From Coptis chinensis (Eukaryota; Streptophyta; Magnoliopsida; Ranunculales; Ranunculaceae), in contig CM027378.1 of NCBI GenBank assembly GCA_015680905.1, forward strand, positions 81,001,501-81,065,500: a stretch of 64,000 nt of DNA, given 5' to 3'. The position numbers were made by a program, and so were the translations under genes. How positions within the stretch are numbered: position 1 is the first letter of the stretch; every line of letters starts with the position of its first letter. The notes beneath the pieces are model-generated. The model worked only from the letters and a program-made list of their open reading frames with translations, searched no databases and had not been told where the DNA came from. Of this stretch, positions 35,389 through 53,564 are shown piece after piece.

Positions 35389-36974
35389 CTATTTATTAGG
35401 TTGTGTTGTAATTGGTACCTCTACAGTGGTAGGCTCTTCAGTTTCTATTTCGGTATCTAGTAAAGTAGCATGTGTAGGGGCTATTGATGGGGTAACTATA
35501 GGCATAGTTACTTTGTTATCAACCACTCTGCCAGAACGGAGAGTGGTGATGGCATTTAGCTCACCTATGTTTTCATTTTCATTACTAGTATTACCGGTTA
35601 CCTCAAAGGCTGCGTTTGTTGTTTTAGGATAAGGTATCGCGTGACCTGGAAACACACCTTTGGGTTGGGCTTTATCTTGGGCCAACTGTTGGCTTAAATT
35701 ATTAACGGATTGTAGAAGCTGTTGGTTAGATTGAGCCATGGTTTGGAAGAGTTGTTGGCTCACCTGTATGAAGGTGTCAAGACAATCCGGTTGGGTGGAT
35801 GTAGTGGTCACGGGTGGCACGACTGGAACTATCTCGCGTTGATTATTTATGGGCGGATTGTGATAGTTATTATTTACCGGAACGATACCTCTATTAGGAT
35901 TATAATTATTATAACTACTTTGACCTTGTGCTTGACCTTGTCGAGGTTGCACTTGGTTGTTATAATTATTATAATTACCCTGACCCAGTCCTTGTCGTGG
36001 TGGAGCTTGGTTATAACTGGGCGTTGGCCTAACATATTGATTATTGTACCATGGAGGTGTGACTTGTTGGTTATTTCTCCAACTGAAGTTGGGATTTTGT
36101 CTCCAAGGGGCGTTAGGTTCACTATTAATGGAACAAGCATGTTCATAGGCTATAGGACAGTGGGAGTCGGGATGCTCAGGACTCCAACAGAAACTACATG
36201 GATTGGAATTTACATTCATGACGGGGATAGGCTTTTGTTGTACATAAATGGCTTCTACCTTTTTAGTGAGTGATTCTATTAGAGTTTTAAGCTCGGGATC
36301 GTGTTTCATCTCAAACATACCAGCGGCCTTAACTGTATTAGAAGAACTAGCGGAGCGGTGGATATCGTCACTACCCCCCAGTTGTTATTTCGCTTAGTTT
36401 GATCCTCTAAAAATTTATAAGCCTCCGAGGCTCCTTTACTTAGGAAACTACCCCCATTCATTATGTCAAGGACTTCTTTATGGTGGTGTAGAAGTCCTTT
36501 GGAAAAGGCACGAACTAACGTGTCTTTCGCTAGGTTATGATATGGACACTCTATAAGGAGATCGGTGAAACGATTCCAAGCCTCTGAAAATGATTCATGA
36601 GGATTTTGTCGAAAGAAATGAATCTTTGAAAGCATCTCATCCGTCTTTAGGGGTGGGTAAAAATGTTTCATAAACAGCTGAACAAGTTTAGCCCACGAGT
36701 CTACAGAATTAGGTGCTTGGGCAGTTAACCAAGATGCCGCCTTATCGGCTAAAGTGAAGGGAAATACCCTGAGTTTAATTTGTTCAACACTCACCGTAGG
36801 ATGGTGGAATGTTGTAAGAACTTGTTCAATCCTACGCATGTGCTGATAAGGATGGTGGAATGTTGTAAGAACTTGTTCAATCCTACGCATGTGCTGATAA
36901 GGTTTTTCATGGTCTAAACCATGGAAAATGGGTAACAAATTAAAAATATTTGGGGGGATTCGGAAATCCCCCAC
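35389..36974 (-). pseudogene. Athila-like gag with zinc knuckle
   Basis: Frame one (36974-36306) starts MGDFRIPPNIFNLLPIFHGL and holds the retrotransposon gag domain: EQIKLRVFPFTLADKAASWL, KHFYPPLKTDEMLSKIHFF and EAWNRFTDLLIECPYHNL. After a frameshift near 36310 the second frame (36318-35389) has the CX2CX4HX4C zinc knuckle CSFCWSPEHPDSHC and a long Asn/Gln/Tyr-rich stretch. A 51-bp direct duplication at about 36787-36900 doubles YQHMRRIEQVLTTFHHP. Gag forms the virus-like particle and packages RNA. The frameshift may be damage, since the second element has a break at a similar place. Confidence 0.75.
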
Positions 36975-46064: not shown

Positions 46065-46583
46065 GCCCCCTCTCAGTAGGTCGTGCAGTTCATTGAGGCG
46101 ATCTACTAAGAGAACACAGTAGCGCGTGTTGAGCATGCATGAAGAGATGAATTGATGTAACTGGAAATACCCAAGGAACTATAGAGATCGATTCGTACTA
46201 TCTGGTGAACTAGTATGCGGTAATAGCTCGCACGTGTATGGCACGTGAGCAAATTTGAGCAGTTACAGAGAAAACGTGCCACCCCATTTTTTTGGGATTT
46301 GAAAAGACAGGGCAACTTGTTGGAAGCCGTGTGCGGCTAGGGCTAGGGTGTAATCATAACACTTTGGGAACTGGAGGGGCGGTTATACAAAACAACGCTG
46401 ACTATCTGAATTGCCATTTCTTGCTTCTCTTTTAAAAAAAAACTCACTACATCAAGAGTCTTCAGGTTAGTTTTCTGCCATTGTTGATCTTCTACTCTCT
46501 GCTTCATTCTTGCTTTTTGTTGTTGAGTTGTTAGGTCATTCATTTTGTTGCCTGTTGTTGGAGATGTGAGTGACAAGAGAAAG

Positions 46584-48912
46584 ATGTTTGACTCAAATGA
46601 TACACGATCTAATGAGATTTGTGAAGTTTCTATTGGTTGGGATGATGTGGAGGAAGAGAAGGAGGAGTCAGTTTGTGGTGTGAGTAAGGGTGATGATGAT
46701 GATGAGGCTAAGGGTGGGGAAGATGATGCCCGATCTGCATTTGCGGTTGCTGTAACTAGCACTTCAGGTCGCGATGAGAGATTGTCGTCCAGTGGGCTAC
46801 CGCCTAGGACTGTAGACAAACACGCTTTGAGGGCGTTCCCCTACCTGAGAAAGACTTATGGGATAACTGTAAGCGGTCTAGAGATCCACGAGCCAGGACA
46901 GGACGCACAGGTCTTTAGTGATAGGTACAATCCACCGAACTACGGGGTTATAGTCTGTGAGGGGCAGTTGAGGGCTCACATGACGATACCGTTCTCTAAA
47001 CTGGTCTGTACGTTTTTGAACTTTTGTGGCAAAGCGCCCTGTCAGTTTGTAGGTAACACGTGGCGGTTGTTCAAGGTGTTTGACTTGCTGAACGCCAGCG
47101 GTGAGTACTGGATAGGGGTCGCTGACATTATTGAGCACTTTTCAGTAAAGCAATCTCGGCCTCTTAACTTTAGTTTGCAAACACGAACTAAGAGGTCGAA
47201 ATGTCTTTGACACGATGAATAACGAAGTCTTAGGGGACAAAAGGCCGTTGCTATTAGTTGGGAACTTCTGTGCTAGAGGGTTTGGTGTGGAAAATAGGAT
47301 ATGTGACCTTACTGGTGGGTACCAGTATGCTATTTGAGTGTTACGATATTGCATCTGTTGACTTTGTATTGACACTACTATTTTGTTGTCTGTGCAAAGC
47401 TTGCTATAGAGAAGGGAACTGATCGAAAGGTGATTAAGAAGTTCGCAAGGCTAACTCGAGCGCAGAAACAGGCGAAACTTCCTGAGGTTGCGCATTTCTT
47501 TGTGAAATGGGGAGGGGCTGCGATTAGGGAGAAGAGGAGGGTTCAGAAGAAGAGGGCTTGGGGTGTGGTGATCAGTGAAGCATCTAGTGGTCCTATGATG
47601 GAAAAGCGCAAGAGGGACCTGGTGACGAGGGAAGATAAGAACCAAAGTCGTGCTGGTCTGAAGCGACCCCTTAGAGGTGCTGGTGGCTCGGGGGCTGGGG
47701 TTGAGAGGGGTTTAGAGAGCGTACCCTACGATTTGGATGATATCAGCTTTGATATACCTGAGCAAAGTCGCTTACCGAAGAGGAAGGGCAACGCACTTGA
47801 GGCCCAGTCTGCCAAGGTCGGGAGGGTAGTTGAAACTGTGTTTGGGGGCAGCTTGGGACCTGGCGGTGAAGGGCGAACTGGGGGGAGGGCGGCTCACAGT
47901 TCGAAGTCTAGGCCACTGGTTGACTTCAGTGTGTTGGGTGAAGAGACCATGGAGGTCGCTGGAGATACTTTTAGTAAGATGAAGGGGAATGCTGCTGTTA
48001 AAGAGACTGACAGAGGTCACTCCAGTGGTGGGAAAGATGAGCTGGAGCGCAATCTAATGTATGTAGATGAGACGTCTGGCAAAAAATGCTTTGTGAAGAG
48101 GTCGGATTGTAGCTACAAATCCGCACTTATAGTTGCTTGTTTGTTGGAGGGGATGACGTTGGATGGTGATAGGAAGGACTTGGATTCCAAGGAGCTGGAG
48201 TCGAACTTAAAGGGAATGGATAAGGCATGGTGCTTGGTAAGTACCTCCTGTGTTGTAATTTGTTTGCCTTGTTCTGTTTCATGTTATTGCTTGAGACTGA
48301 CGCGGTGTACTGTACTTATTGATGCAGCTTATTGATGGGTACTAAAAATTGAAAATGGCTGCGCAGTTCACTGAGATGGAAAAGACTGAGGTTGAGTCCT
48401 TGAAGGATAAGCTCTCGACTCTTCGAGAAGTGGGACAGTTTGAGAAGAAAGAACTGGACACTTTGAAGACGCAGCTCACTTCATTAACTTTGGAGAAGAC
48501 GTCAGCTGTCAACGAGTCGGTCGAGCTGAGGCATGAGGTGGACGACCTGAAGAGAAAGTTAACTGCAATGAATGCCTTTGCTGAAAGATGCAAAACTACC
48601 ACGGTGCAGGCGAAGGAGGCCTATTTTGCCATTCGTGCTGAGGTAGAGGAGCTGGAGAAAAAATACAATGAGCTGCAGGAGGAACATGAACGTGGGGCTT
48701 TGGGTGATCGTAGGAATGAAACACTCGAAGATGCTAGTAATGTTCCTGAGGTCATGCCTCCTTTTGCTACTGGTGTATTAGCTGATCCTTCGCAGGTGCC
48801 AGTCGACCTGGACGTGACCGTTACCGATGCGGCTGTGGTAACCTCCGGCGAACCTAGTCCCTCTCAATTGCTAAATGTACTTATCACTGAAAGCTTTGAT
48901 AATGTTATTTAG
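46584..48912 (+). pseudogene. Antisense ORF of the Tat element, copy 1 ('putative gypsy type transposon' protein)
   Basis: Plus-strand gene opposite to pol. The start is ATG at 46584 (MFDSNDTRSNEIC), then an acidic stretch. A block GVIVCEGQLRAHMTIPFSKL, VCTFLNFCGKAPCQFVGNTW and RLFKVFDLLN matches the PF04195-type domain. This frame stops at 47210. A second exon-like frame (about 47405-48236) starts after TGTGCAAAG and carries KKFARLTRAQKQAKLPEVAH, basic stretches (KRRVQKKR) and KKCFVKRSDCSYKSALIVAC. It ends at a GTAAGT donor at 48237. The third exon (after TGCAG at about 48326) has an early in-frame TAA and then a long coiled coil (48349-48912). Known Tat elements carry such antisense genes; their role is unknown. 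The join between frames 1 and 2 is unclear and the copy looks inactive. Confidence 0.65.
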
Positions 48913-48963
48913 AAATGGTGATTTAAGTTTGTGTTTATGTGTGGCCTTTGGCCTGAAACAATA

Positions 48964-49162
48964 GAGCTGGTTTCCTGGGGTAACCTGGGCGGTTCGCTTT
49001 AAGTATTAATTTTTGTTTGTATCGTACCTGGACGACCTGGACCTCCAGATTGTTCTGGAGAGTTTGGGAAGTGATACCCGGTAGTTAAGCGAGCTGGATT
49101 TCCTGAGTAGACTTAGCAGCTCGGTTAGTCTACGAACTGGGCTTAACTTTGGCCGACAATTC
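48964..49162 (+). ncRNA. Hairpin cluster A downstream of antisense ORF copy 1
   Basis: Three two-stem hairpins and one plain hairpin follow the stop codon at 48912. Copy 1 (48964-48995) has outer stem GAGCTG/CGGTTC and inner loop GTAA. The plain hairpin is CTCCAGA-TTGT-TCTGGAG (49043-49060). Copy 2 (49091-49122) has outer GAGCTG/CAGCTC, a one-sided GATTTC bulge and inner CTGAG-TAGA-CTTAG. Copy 3 (49134-49162) has outer GAACTG/CAATTC. The layout is shared with cluster B. Whether it acts as RNA or DNA is inference. Confidence 0.5.
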
Positions 49163-49797
49163 CCTCTTTTGCTTGTATTTGAATGCATGTCGCTTCATTT
49201 TGCTCAATTACTTGGTGCTTTGCATATGATATGTCTGATTACGCTTTGTAAATGCGTGGCTGTTGTTGCGACCTGTGGTAAGAGTAAGATAGGCTAAACG
49301 ACCTGTGAGCTTGTTTACGCGTCATGTTTGTTATTCGTTTTTAGCATTATAGGTTGCACATATCTTTAGGACGCATGAAACGTTCTAAGTTTTAGAGCAA
49401 CATGGGCTACAGTACGTGCGTGCCACGTGTAGGAATATGGGCGGTCGGGAGATATGAAATGATAGCTGCCAGGTGGCCTGATGTTTGGCGTCTCAATGCA
49501 ATTATAACGTGCCTTGGGAAGGGACATTACTTGGGCATAAGTAGAACTGTTAGTAGAAGCTCAAGGGTATTTACTCTCCTTCATCTCCAAGCTGCTGTGC
49601 TCCAAAGTTCTTGCGCGCTTATCTTTACTGATCAACTTAAGTACGTGTACTTCTTTACTTAGTTTTCTGTTGAATAAGAATGCTTTGTTATTGTGTTAGT
49701 TCAGTGATCTTTAGTTTCGTTTGTAGACTCGAGTATGGACATGTGACGTGGATATGCTGGTGGTGGTGATGAGGGGACGAGGGAAGCCTCTCCCTTT
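49163..49797 (+). other. Spacer between antisense ORF copies
   Basis: No domain recognised. An 86-codon plus-strand frame at 49402-49662 has no recognisable features. Confidence 0.4.
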
Positions 49798-49800
49798 GTG

Positions 49801-50768
49801 ATGGAGGAGATGGAGTTTAGACCCCATCCTCATGGGAACCATGGTAAGCGCAAAGCTATTGGTTATAGTTCAAAGAAAGGCAAGCGTGCCAAGGTGGAGG
49901 GGTGTGGGCGACTTGGAGGTATTGTGTTCAGGTCTCCTAGTCGAGGAGGGGATAACGACCTGAACTGGGAGGAACATGGCAACCTAGGGCGAGGTCGCAA
50001 TACTGCGGCTGGCAGTTCATCCTAGCATTCTGGTGATGTGGGGAGGGACTTCTTCTACGTTGGGAAGACGGGGAAGAAGCGCATGGTCAAGCGGTCTAAT
50101 TGCAGCTTTCATTCGGCTTCTATAGCGACTTGCCTCCTGGAAGGAATGGTACTAGATGGTGATAAAACTAAGCTGGAAGATAAAACTTTGGAAACGACCC
50201 TGAAGACCACAGACTTGGCTTGTTATTTGGTGAGCTTTTTACTTGTACTGATTTCTTGTGGTGTAAATAATGACTATTAACATTAGCGTTCTCTTTGCAG
50301 TTTTTGGCGAGGTACGATAAATTGAAGCGAGTTGTGCTGCGTCTTGATAATGTCGATGGTGGCACGGCTGAGCTGGTTAGGATACATACTGCCTGGGAAG
50401 CTGATAAGAAGAAGATGAAGGCCCTAAGGAAAAAACATCAGGACGCGCTAGAGGAGAAAACTGTGATGGTTAGTTCAATGATGGACTTGCGTGAAAAATT
50501 GGCGTCCGTGACGGAGTACGCCAAGCAGTGTCAAATTGTGGCACGCAAAGCGCAAAGGGAATATGATCGAGTTTGTGAAGATCATGGTGTGCTGGCAAAA
50601 CTGTATGTTGTACTACTGGAAAAGCAAGATCGTGAGGTTGATGATACTGCTGCACTTGTCATAGCACGCGATGCGAGTAATATTCCTTCTACCAGTACCG
50701 CTCCGATTGATAAACACGTTGTTGCTGATGCGGGAGATGATTGCTGGACTTGTCTTTGTAAGTTATGA
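49801..50768 (+). pseudogene. Antisense ORF of the Tat element, copy 2 (3' part only)
   Basis: A second, diverged copy of the 3' half of the antisense gene. A frame from ATG 49801 holds GKRKAIGYSSKKGKRAKVEG and stops at 50025. The next frame (50038 on) reads DFFYVGKTGKKRMVKRSNCS and ATCLLEGMVLDGDKTKLEDK, parallel to the copy 1 stretch KKCFVKRSDCSYKSA ... EGMTLDGDRKDL. The donor GTGAGC at 50229 and an acceptor TTTGCAG at about 50300 mirror copy 1. The last exon starts FLARYDKLKRVVL and is a coiled coil to 50768. The N-terminal domain is absent. The intron position is shared, so the duplication kept gene structure. Confidence 0.65.
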
Positions 50769-50820
50769 AAATTTGTTGGCGCTTTGTTAGTTCTCCTCTT
50801 TGTGAAAGAGTTAAACAATA

Positions 50821-51008
50821 GAATTGGTTTCTCAGGTTCGCCTGAGCAGTTCGCCTTTTTGGTACACATACATAACAAATTGGTTTCCACCAAAGTGGCA
50901 GTTCGCTTTTTGCTAAAAATTATAAGAATTCCCGATCTGGATTTCCTGGGTAGACCCAGCAGATCGGTAGATTAGTGAACTGGTTTCCTGAGTTTATCCA
51001 GGCAATTC
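50821..51008 (+). ncRNA. Hairpin cluster B downstream of antisense ORF copy 2
   Basis: Four two-stem hairpins start 53 bp after the stop codon. B1 (50821-50852) has outer GAATTG/CAGTTC and inner CTCAGG-TTCG-CCTGAG. B2 (50878-50903) has outer AATTG/CAGTT and inner CCAC-CAAA-GTGG. B3 (50934-50965) has outer GATCTG/CAGATC and inner CTGGG-TAGA-CCCAG. B4 (50977-51008) has outer GAACTG/CAATTC and inner CCTG/CAGG. All keep a GGTTTC or GGATTTC spacer on the 5' side only. Stems differ between copies yet still pair. Confidence 0.55.
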
Positions 51009-51119
51009 AGTTGATGGGGGTTTATGGAATGCATGTTGTTTATTTACGCTTGATTTCTTGTACTTATTGTGTTGCTCATGATGTATATGGCATATAGTGA
51101 TTACAAAGTTTGAGACTTA

Positions 51120-52440
51120 GCTTAGGGAAACGTTCTGCTCGTAGATAATGTTCTCAACTGTGGGTTGCCCACTAGTAAGAACTTTATGGGCTGATAAGCC
51201 TGGTAGCTCATAGGAGTGTGCTAGCTTATTATAGCGTAGGGTTCGCTGAGAGCGTTCTGTCTGAGCTAATCCTAAAGTTATAGGTAATCACTAATGAGAA
51301 TTAGAAAGCGTGTTAGCTTATGAAAGTGTATTTCTCACTGAGAGTGTTCTCACTGAGTTGATCCCAGAAGTATAGGTCCTCAACTAGTGAGAATTGGAGA
51401 GGCCATGAAGCCTGTAAGCTCGAGAGAGCGTTTTAGCTTATGAAAGCATATTGCTCACTGAGAGCGTTCTCGCTGAGTTGATCCTAGAAGTATAGGTCCT
51501 TAACTAGTGAGAAATGGAGAGGCTATGGAGCCTATAAGCTCGAGAGAGCGTGTTGCTTGCGGAGAGCGTGGTAGCTTATGAAAGCGTTCTCGCTGAGTTG
51601 ATCCTAGAAGTATAGGTCCTCAACTAGGGAGAATTGGAGAGGCTATGGAGCTTGTAATCTCGAGAGAGCGTGTTGCTCGAGAGAGCATGGTAGCTTATGA
51701 AAGCGTATTGCTCACTGAGAGCGTTCTCGCTGAGTTGATCCTAGAAGTATAGGTCCTCAACTAGTGAGAATTGGAGAGGCTATGGAACCTGTAAGCTCGA
51801 GAGAGCGTGTTGCTTGCGGAGAGCATGGTAGCTTAAGAAAGCGTATTGCTCACTGAGAGCGTTCTCGCTAAGTTGATCCTAGAAGTATAGGTCCTCAACT
51901 AGGGAGAATTGGAGAGGGCATGGAGCCTGTAAGCTCGAGATAGCGTGTTGCTCGCGGAGAGCGTGGTAGCTTATGAAAGCATATTGCTCACTGAGAGTGT
52001 TCTCGCTGAGTTGATCCTAGAAGTATAGGTCCTCAACTAGGGAGAATTGGAGAGGGCATGAAGCCTGTAAGCTCGAGAGAGCGTGTTACTCACGGAGAGC
52101 GTGGTAGCTTATGAAAGCGTATTGCTCACTGAAAGTGTTCTCGCTGAGTTGATCTTAGAAGTATAGGTCCTCAACTAGGGAGAATTGGAGAGGCTATGGA
52201 ACCTGTAAGCTCGAGAGAGCGTGTTGCTCACTGAGAGCGTGGTAGCTTATGAAAGCGCATTGCTCACTGAGAGCGTTCTCGCTGAGTTGATCCTAGAAGT
52301 ATAAGTCCTCAACTAGGGAGAATTGGAGAGGCTATAGAGCTTGTAAGCTCGAGAGAGTGTGCTGCTCATGGAGAGCGTGGTAGCGTATGAAAGCGTATGA
52401 CTCCCTGAGAGCGTTGAAACTCATGAGAGTGCTGGAAGCT
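51120..52440 (+). repeat. Tandem repeat array, 120- then 138-bp period
   Basis: The phrase ATCCTAGAAGTATAGGTCCT recurs at 51361, 51481, 51601, 51738, 51876, 52014, 52152 and 52290. Spacing is 120, 120, 137, 138, 138, 138 and 138 bp, with degraded units at both ends. Units also share GAGAGCGTTCTCGCTGAG and AGCTCGAGAGAGCGTG. The longer unit has an extra GTATTGCTCACTGAGAG-like insert. The array sits between pol and the 3' LTR of the Tat-type element, a region known to be hypervariable and to seed satellites in this lineage. Confidence 0.9.
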
Positions 52441-52571: not shown

Positions 52572-53564
52572 TTATTGGTAAAATTTCTTTAACAAATAAG
52601 TGTTCCAAGGGCGTGGCAATGGTTTTCCTTCTTGGGTCTTGATCCAGTACGCTCCATTGCCAACAACTCGTTCCACTATGTACGGTCCTTCCCACGTTGG
52701 TGCTAGCTTGGAGTCATCTTGAGTCTTTTTCAGAACTAAATCACCAGGTTGAAAAGATCGAGGATGTACTCGCTTGTTGTAGGACTTCTTCAGGGTTTGT
52801 TGGTAAGATGCCACTCTGATGGCTGCTAGGTCGCGGCGTTCTTTCAGCAAGTCGACCTCTCTAGCTAGGACGGAGTCATTATGTCTAGACTCGATGAGTT
52901 CTGATCGAGTTGTAGTGACTATCAGTTCGGTGGGAATAATGGCTTCTGTGCCATAGCATAAGGAGAATGGTGACTTGCCTGTGTTGGAGCGAGTTGTGGT
53001 GCGATGAGCCCACAGAATGTTCTCTAACTGATTTGGCCATTGGCTCTTGTTCTTTTCAATCTTTTTCTTCAAATTTTCAAAGATTGCTTTGTTGCTGGCC
53101 TCTGCTTGGCCATTGCTTTGAGCGTACTGAGGAGTGGAGAACGCATGGACGATCTTCCATTTGGCCAGAAACTCCTTGACTGTTTTTCCCTTGAATTGGG
53201 AACCATTGTCCATCACCAATATGTGTGGTAATCCAAATCTGGTAATGATGTGAGTCCAGATGAAGTTTCTGACGTGTGATTCCCTGACATGAGCTAAATG
53301 AATTGCTTCGACCCACTTAGTAAAGTAATCAGTTGCAACTAAGACGAAGCGGAAACCGGTACTTTTTTGTACGATGAAAGGTCCCATGATGTCCATGCCC
53401 CACATGTGAAATGGCCAAGGGCTCATAGTGTTGATCAACTCGCGAGCTAGTTGGATGATGTTATGGCCAAAGGTCTGGCATTTGATGCACTTGAGGACAT
53501 ATGTTTTGGCATCAATCTGCATTCGAGGCCAAAAGTATCCTTGGGAGATCGCTTTGTGGGCCAA
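52572..53564 (-). pseudogene. Tat-type integrase, 330-codon open frame
   Basis: The longest intact pol frame in the window, minus strand. It opens with HKAISQGYFWPRMQIDAKTY and CIKCQTFG (end of the zinc-binding region) and has WGMDIMGPF with the first Asp, VMDNGSQFKGKTVKEF with the second, and GQAEASNKAIFENLKKKI with the Glu. A C-terminal part with DLVLKKTQDDSKLAPTWEGP and YIVERVVGNGAYWI (the GPY/F-type module) ends in LKKFYQ. Integrase inserts the cDNA copy into the genome. The frame itself is open, but the surrounding pol is broken. Confidence 0.85.

Follow-up and report, generated by a model that had tools for sequence, protein, structure and literature searches.

The window analysed here is a stretch of 64,000 nucleotides of Coptis chinensis, and all coordinates refer to it. 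It contains an integrase gene on the minus strand, identified by its rve (E=1.9e-14) and H2C2 (E=1.3e-6) matches in Pfam, and the host element therefore reads leftwards. The hairpins described below are on the opposite strand. In the leftward direction, given in plus-strand coordinates, the integrase is followed by a tandem array and then by a region of plus-strand ORFs, which are antisense to the element. The arrangement is as follows.

46545-48912, plus strand: antisense gene copy 1 (predicted; ORFs 46545-47210, 47430-48335 and 48349-48912; ORF list, tblastn)
48964-49163, plus strand: hairpin block 1
49996-50768, plus strand: antisense gene copy 2 (tail of the second part 49996-50178, coiled coil 50295-50768; tblastn, ORF list)
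50821-51008, plus strand: hairpin block 2
51303-52415, no strand: tandem array lying between the integrase gene and block 2, in units of 120 and 138 bp (repeat analysis)
52572-53564, minus strand: integrase (rve, H2C2) of the host element (Pfam)

Three traits of Retand/Tat elements are present: a retroviral-type integrase gene opposite the extra ORF, an antisense ORF beyond pol (from the ORF list, the protein being conserved in divergent loci), and a tandem array beyond pol, at 51303-52415, which is a trait of about half of the described elements. To judge from the integrase, the antisense ORF and the array, the host is a Ty3/gypsy retrotransposon of the Tat/Retand type on the minus strand. 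A first-pass annotation of this DNA had already proposed a Tat-type host, and the minus-strand integrase bears this out.

Antisense gene copy 1 consists, in order, of a first part homologous to TRP28, a basic region and a coiled coil; the second part of the protein, judged by eye, is rich in lysine and arginine. The first part was not found in copy 2 by tblastn, and the roles of the duplicates may differ. The relation to TRP28 is indirect. Against the Pfam family Transposase_28 (PF04195), the window ORF gives no match at E up to 1, and neither it nor four relatives reach the curated cut-off of 26.2 bits; among these relatives, tested up to E 10, L087 alone matches (E=0.018, 15.7 bits). The locus C4:53412658 passes the cut-off at 30.5 bits, and the four relatives match its protein with 36-41% identity (best E=6e-32 over 125 aa). 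By this homology to a protein scoring above the cut-off, the window antisense gene is TRP28-related. Searched at the protein level, the first antisense exon gave 121 candidates, none at E<=0.001.

Antisense TRP28 (PF04195) ORFs are described for Retand elements by Vicient 2025 (PMC11963269), lying between pol and the 3' LTR. The window resembles the elements described there in having an antisense ORF beyond pol, a tandem array in the same region and a homologous protein, and differs from that description in that the gene is duplicated, each copy having a probable structured 3'UTR. An antisense ORF beyond pol is also shared with maize Grande, whose gene23 is described as transcribed from its own promoter, related antisense ORFs being transcribed as well (PMC7264820). 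The role of the Retand antisense ORFs is called unknown in the texts of both papers (PMC11963269, PMC7264820).

A hairpin block begins 51-52 nt past the stop codon of each antisense gene copy. In ten divergent 10-kb loci, which were selected for block 1, block 1 is present in 10/10 and block 2 in 8/10, and an integrase further on is found in exactly the eight loci that have block 2. What recurs, here in two copies, is an antisense ORF together with the hairpin block 3' of it.

The hairpin blocks

The first-pass annotation placed a cluster of four two-stem hairpins at 50821-51008, after copy 2. All four are there, but the cluster is one of two, since a second, paralogous block lies at 48964-49163 after copy 1. 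The hairpins are listed below, with primes for block 1.

48964-48995, plus strand: hairpin 1', GAGCTG-GTTT-CCTGGG-GTAA-CCTGGG-CGGTTC (alignment; consensus fold; covariance model, the site being within the model's own set)
49043-49060, plus strand: hairpin 2', CTCCAG-ATTGTT-CTGGAG (alignments, pair table; consensus fold in a slightly shifted register)
49090-49123, plus strand: hairpin 3', CGAGCTG-GATTTC-CTGAG-TAGA-CTTAG-CAGCTCG (scan, alignments, consensus fold)
49133-49163, plus strand: hairpin 4', outer stem CGAACTG, imperfect in the window copy, and inner stem GGCT/GGCC (alignments, pair table, consensus fold)
50796-50810, plus strand: small plain hairpin just upstream of block 2, CTCTTT-GTG-AAAGAG (alignments, consensus fold)
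50821-50852, plus strand: hairpin 1, GAATTG-GTTT-CTCAGG-TTCG-CCTGAG-CAGTTC (sequence; folds alone with z -3.2; covariance-model match, the site being within the model's own set)
50876-50905, plus strand: hairpin 2, with a 7-bp outer stem in relatives, a GTTT bulge and inner stem CCAC/GTGG (alignment, consensus fold)
50932-50967, plus strand: hairpin 3, CCGATCTG-GATTTC-CTGGG-TAGA-CCCAG-CAGATCGG (scan, single fold)
50977-51008, plus strand: hairpin 4, GAACTG-GTTT-CCTGAG-TTTA-TCCAGG-CAATTC (hairpin-1 covariance model, E=0.003; consensus fold)

In hairpins 1-4, 1' and 3' alike, a U-rich bulge separates the outer stem from the short, small-looped inner stem, and it is confined to the 5' side. The bulge is GUUU or GAUUUC in the two blocks, and the loops vary. 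The architecture stands as first drawn, with outer stems of 5-6 bp, except that the outer stem of hairpin 3 has 8 bp (CCGATCTG/CAGATCGG). The outer stem given for hairpin 4, GAACTG/CAATTC, contains one C.A mismatch in the window; in most of 40 copies the second arm is CAGTTC and pairs fully. In the window copy the paired part of hairpin 2 is 50878-50903. Among relatives, the outer stem of hairpin 3' reaches 12 bp and the closing pair of hairpin 2' is G-C or T-A. An initial register for hairpin 2' was poor, and was replaced by another for the pair table.

The window copy of block 2 is decayed, and its units 2 and 4 folded singly do not give the structure drawn. In the minimum-energy fold of the whole region unit 3 pairs with unit 4: within 50940-51008, CCTGGGTAGA pairs with TTTATCCAGG. 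This may be a switch, or an accident of the decayed window copy.

A few further observations concern the surroundings of the blocks. The string GAATGCATGT occurs downstream of both, at 51027-51036 and 49181-49190, and is largely conserved in relatives. In two related copies, L017 and L019, about 13 nt of hairpin 1 have been deleted and hairpins 2-4 remain. In the block 2 copy L021, both the first hairpin and the sequence upstream of it are of block 1 type, and the copy is likely to be a recombinant between the two blocks.

Folding and pairing among the copies

A descriptor scan was run with an outer stem of >=5 bp, a 5' bulge of 4-6 nt, an inner stem of 4-7 bp and a loop of 4-8 nt, one G.U being allowed per helix. 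On the plus strand of block 2 it finds three non-overlapping matches in the window, compared with none in any of 1000 dinucleotide shuffles; unit 4 is missed because of its C.A mismatch. Block 1 of the window has one match, which is not significant alone (134/1000 shuffles).

Copies were collected from the 935-Mb genome, where the best 40 of 1009 candidate places were scored for block 2 and 40 of 823 for block 1. To these were added, for block 2, eight copies from the ten 10-kb loci and 10 of 16 places tried (58 in all) and, for block 1, 15 of 24 places tried (55 in all). The first-pass annotation would have abandoned the hairpins had their stems been no more paired than in shuffled sequence; the 58 block 2 copies have on average 2.36 descriptor hairpins each, against 0.21 when shuffled, and three or more are found in 24/58 copies and in 0/290 shuffles. 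The means for block 1 are 0.58 and 0.12, the former being low in part because the scan permits only one G.U per helix.

De novo folding with RNAalifold of the 58 gap-filtered block 2 copies returns all of hairpins 1-4, with their bulges on the 5' side, together with a stem closing around the four and some small stems. The gap-filtered block 1 alignment returns hairpins 1', 3' and 4', and hairpin 2' in its slightly shifted register. Against 30 column shuffles each, the consensus folds have z-scores of -12.6 (block 2) and -10.7 (block 1). Coding ends immediately upstream (260 nt, 25 shuffles each) give +0.4 beside block 2 (47 copies) and -1.7 beside block 1 (40 copies). The downstream flanks of about 260 nt, at about 51060-51320 and 49220-49480 in the window, give -8.9 (block 2, 48 copies) and -4.8 (block 1, 30 copies; 25 shuffles each), and some structure therefore continues past the blocks. 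The four units are confirmed as real and as lying far above chance.

A separate RNAalifold run on 40 block 2 copies gave a weaker, mixed fold with partial units only, in which arms are crossed between units. Such crossing can occur because units 1, 2 and 4 have nearly the same outer-stem sequence, and arm swapping among the units is possible according to these folds. The long-range alternatives (unit 3 with unit 4, and the arms of units 1, 2 and 4) were not adopted, as the larger gap-filtered sets give local hairpins.

Pairing was then compared between lineages. Hairpin 1 with its flanks occupies exactly 40 columns in both blocks, and 105 of the 113 copies (95 of them distinct) were used; L008, L017, L019, L021, L022, L097, L069 and L117 were left out for reasons of length, deletions, recombination or near-identity. 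In these 105 sequences 95.1% of cells are paired, compared with 26-48% when one arm is slid, and two-sided changes are seen at 4/6 pairs of the inner stem. For hairpin 3, in 54 of the 113 copies hand-picked for diversity, 92.6% of cells are paired, compared with 20-42% when slid. Here two pairs have changed cleanly on both sides between block 2 and block 1, one in the outer stem (UA in 28 copies, GC in 26) and the other in the inner (GC in 26, AU in 25). For both hairpins the percentage paired, the number of two-sided cells and the covariation score are beaten by none of 500 shuffles; the counts of two-sided pairs and of pair types are unexceptional (148, 263, 240 and 279 of 500 shuffles being as high). 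A divergent group of block 1 has further exchanges: C-G to T-A in the basal pair of the hairpin 1' inner stem, G-C to T-A in the closing pair of hairpin 2', and A-T to G-C by way of G.T in hairpin 3'.

Formal covariation tests are negative. Lack of significant covariation among many copies had also been named at the outset as a ground for rejection, and pair by pair this is what was found: in a tree-aware test of the R-scape type (G statistic with APC, the null being parsimony changes redistributed on a FastTree tree), the helix pairs at E<0.05 number 0/48, 0/47, 0/49, 0/12 and 0/14 across the sets. Within blocks, compensated pairs are not enriched, at 9/46 versus 1133/8964 other well-paired column pairs in one block (Fisher p=0.18) and 2/47 versus 1246/14508 in the other (p=0.43). 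Copies differ mostly through decay that followed insertion, and compensations that are informative are confined to a few deep splits. We read the negative tests as a consequence of this, because copies decay freely once inserted and the real compensations lie on few deep branches.

Changes that keep a pair outnumber those that break it by 102:46 on internal branches, versus 266:287 on terminal ones (OR 2.38, Fisher p=7.5e-6). Pair-keeping was nevertheless rejected as evidence, since random column pairs that are >=85% paired give a mean OR of 1.89, with 24/300 as high; with columns outside the helices only, 42/300 are as high.

Block 2 shows clear constraint on its helices as a whole; in block 1 the constraint is weaker. 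Counting parsimony changes as internal:terminal, block 2 has 62:304 in helices versus 246:477 in linkers, so that helices are depleted internally (OR 0.40, p=1.7e-9), and this holds for transversions alone (OR 0.19, p=2.3e-5) and for changes whose starting base is A or T (OR 0.50, p=0.028). The corresponding counts for block 1 are 103:302 and 184:354 (OR 0.66, p=0.004; transversions only, OR 0.36, p=0.001), and here the effect is gone once the count is limited to an A or T starting base (OR 1.09, p=0.8). Loop and bulge columns, pooled, show no depletion relative to linkers (OR 1.38, p=0.16; OR 0.91, p=0.8); the bulge of hairpin 1 (columns 14-17) is nearly invariant across the 105 sequences. 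The stems that have changed between lineages and still pair, the helix constraint on internal branches and the consensus folds support the original suggestion of selection on structure.

A related hairpin in a third lineage

The TRP28 Pfam model has at least 17 matches at E<=1e-3 in the genome (best 150 of 1295 candidates scored), and pieces were examined at nine TRP28 loci. Three of these, L133, L140 and L137 (65-83% DNA identity), have in the 3'UTR the hairpin GATACTGAGGTC-GTTTT-CCTAGG-ATAA-CCTGAG-GGCCTCGGTATC or a variant of it, in L133 about 150 nt past the stop. The bulge is GUUUU. In the pieces from the remaining six (L131, L132, L134, L135, L138 and L139) the hairpin-1 core is absent at up to three mismatches, those from L138 and L139 being 1.3 kb long, taken at a guessed distance, and liable to miss the 3'UTR.

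A DNA search (40 places scored) found 39 further places at 91-96%, of which 20 were read, making 23 copies with the first three. In 21/23 copies 16-18 of the 18 pairs form; the other two form 10 and 11, an apparent one-base deletion breaking the fixed register. The loop is AUAA in 22/23, which is not GNRA. The outer stem has 12 bp, versus 6-7 in the window family. Counting from the bulge, of the six adjacent outer pairs two have both bases changed relative to ours, two have one base changed and two are the same; this is in our own register, and MAFFT placed the gap elsewhere. A clear relationship to ours is seen in the bulge, the inner stem and the loop. The hairpin is conserved although the proteins of this family are only 36-41% identical to the window relatives.

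A covariance model of hairpin 1 was run over 183,592 bases. It finds 20 hairpin-1 places, every one in its own training set, and further matches hairpin 4 at six places (E=0.003 in the window) and hairpin 2 at two; hairpins 1, 2 and 4 therefore look like diverged copies of one design. The weaker matches that remain fall on the third-lineage inner hairpins (E 0.04 to 0.81) and, in one case, elsewhere (E=0.89).

Two features lie downstream of the third-lineage hairpin: in L133 a string, ATGCATGT, that is similar to GAATGCATGT, and at the third-lineage loci, further on, a long inverted repeat with arms of 12-14 bp (in L133 from 2287 on the plus strand, in L140 from 1159 of the reverse complement).

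The working strand and a possible role

The structure is established in silico, as are the conservation of the hairpins and the placing of a block behind each antisense stop. On this basis the hairpins are probably a structured 3'UTR of the antisense mRNA, the bulges being proposed as protein recognition sites. The TRP28-related antisense gene lies on the plus strand beyond pol, and in its mRNA each copy would be followed by some four short stem-loops in a row; the two blocks would most simply have arisen by the gene and its 3'UTR being duplicated as one. Bulged hairpins that recur in a 3'UTR point to several binding sites for a single protein, which would act on the antisense mRNA by controlling its stability, export or translation. 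The lysine- and arginine-rich second part of the antisense protein makes self-binding possible, so that this protein may be the element's own. We infer that the plus strand is the working one, that it is transcribed here and that it has a protein partner.

Majority pairs on the plus strand are G.U rather than A.C by 7 to 1 in block 1, 1 to 0 in block 2 and 3 to 0 in the third lineage, and this favours the plus strand because the same fixed G.U pairs would be A.C mismatches on the minus. The loops were sorted into what we take to be the GNRA, CUUG and YNMG classes. GNRA loops are found on the plus strand in 41/53 copies of hairpin 1' and 49/58 of hairpin 2, compared with none of either on the minus strand. 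Hairpin 1 loops of block 2 (n=52) are CUUG in 23 and YNMG in 18 on the plus strand, while 39/52 also fit YNMG on the minus; hairpins 3, 3' and 4 have almost no loops of a named type on either strand. Folding energies of the two window blocks are lower on the minus strand (z of -3.6 versus -0.8, and -4.7 versus -2.3), and the consensus folds are divided (minus versus plus, -14.7 versus -12.6 for block 2 and -7.0 versus -10.7 for block 1), so that the z-scores do not settle the question. Changes from Watson-Crick pairs to G.U or to A.C number 57:29 on internal and 203:156 on terminal branches, a difference with p=0.11 only. Taken together, we hold with good confidence that the plus, antisense mRNA, strand is the working one.

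The structure might instead work in the sense strand, in the genomic RNA of the element, for packaging, dimerisation or export, and lie behind the antisense genes by chance; the bulge would then be AAAC on the 3' side. By position the region does belong to the genomic RNA beyond pol, and the lower minus-strand z-scores of both window blocks and of the block 2 consensus fit this. It is unlikely, though, in view of the fixed G.U pairs and of the GNRA loops of hairpins 1' and 2, which exist only on the plus strand, and because there are two blocks, each behind an antisense stop and both retained in 8/10 divergent loci, and the third-lineage hairpin too is behind a TRP28 ORF. That the hairpins are a neutral leftover, inverted repeats of one ancestral element with no function and conserved by descent, would agree with the lack of tree-aware covariation and with the free breaking of pairs on terminal branches. 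We consider this quite improbable, given that the stems of hairpins 1 and 3 have altered between lineages and still pair, that internal branches show constraint on helices compared with linkers, and that the adjoining coding ends have little or no excess structure.

Closer to the protein-binding 3'UTR, and overlapping with it in likelihood, is a role in 3'-end formation or processing of the antisense transcript, by shielding or presenting a poly(A) site or blocking an exonuclease, with no special protein. Both blocks do lie between the stop and a conserved GAATGCATGT-like string. Yet a bulge repeated in most hairpins exceeds the needs of a plain end-protecting stem, and by itself this role seems rather unlikely.

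The retroviral TAR and Rev-response element are short hairpins with bulges or internal loops that are read by a small basic protein encoded by the element, the latter being a platform of several hairpins. The window hairpins resemble these as bulged stem-loops, the window system being known from its predicted stem-loops; TAR and the Rev-response element lie in sense RNA, whereas the window hairpins would lie in the 3'UTR of an antisense mRNA, and a sequence relation, looked for in Rfam, gave no match. A bolder version of the 3'UTR reading, possible but on the unlikely side, has the TRP28-type antisense protein binding the bulged hairpins of its own mRNA, in the manner of TAR or the Rev-response element but on the antisense transcript, with two genes carrying matched arrays and a module older than the split between TRP28 families that are 36-41% alike.

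The first-pass annotation knew of no described element of this form in Tat retrotransposons, and none was found. Rfam 15 gives no match at gathering over the whole window and none at E<=1 over 48900-51100. Among the literature matches listed, no title or abstract start concerns such an element, older papers on these ORFs lying outside this scope, and the words 'hairpin' and 'secondary structure' have no occurrence in the main texts of PMC11963269 and PMC7264820. An RNA structure that is conserved as part of the antisense mRNA would count as independent evidence for selection on the transcript as well as on the protein. It would also provide a marker for recognising antisense 3'UTRs and, as a bulged hairpin of 32-45 nt, a concrete bait for a protein partner.

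Elsewhere in the window, at 36798-36902, a 51-bp unit is present as a perfect tandem duplicate inside a gag-type ORF (36306-36974, minus strand) of another element.
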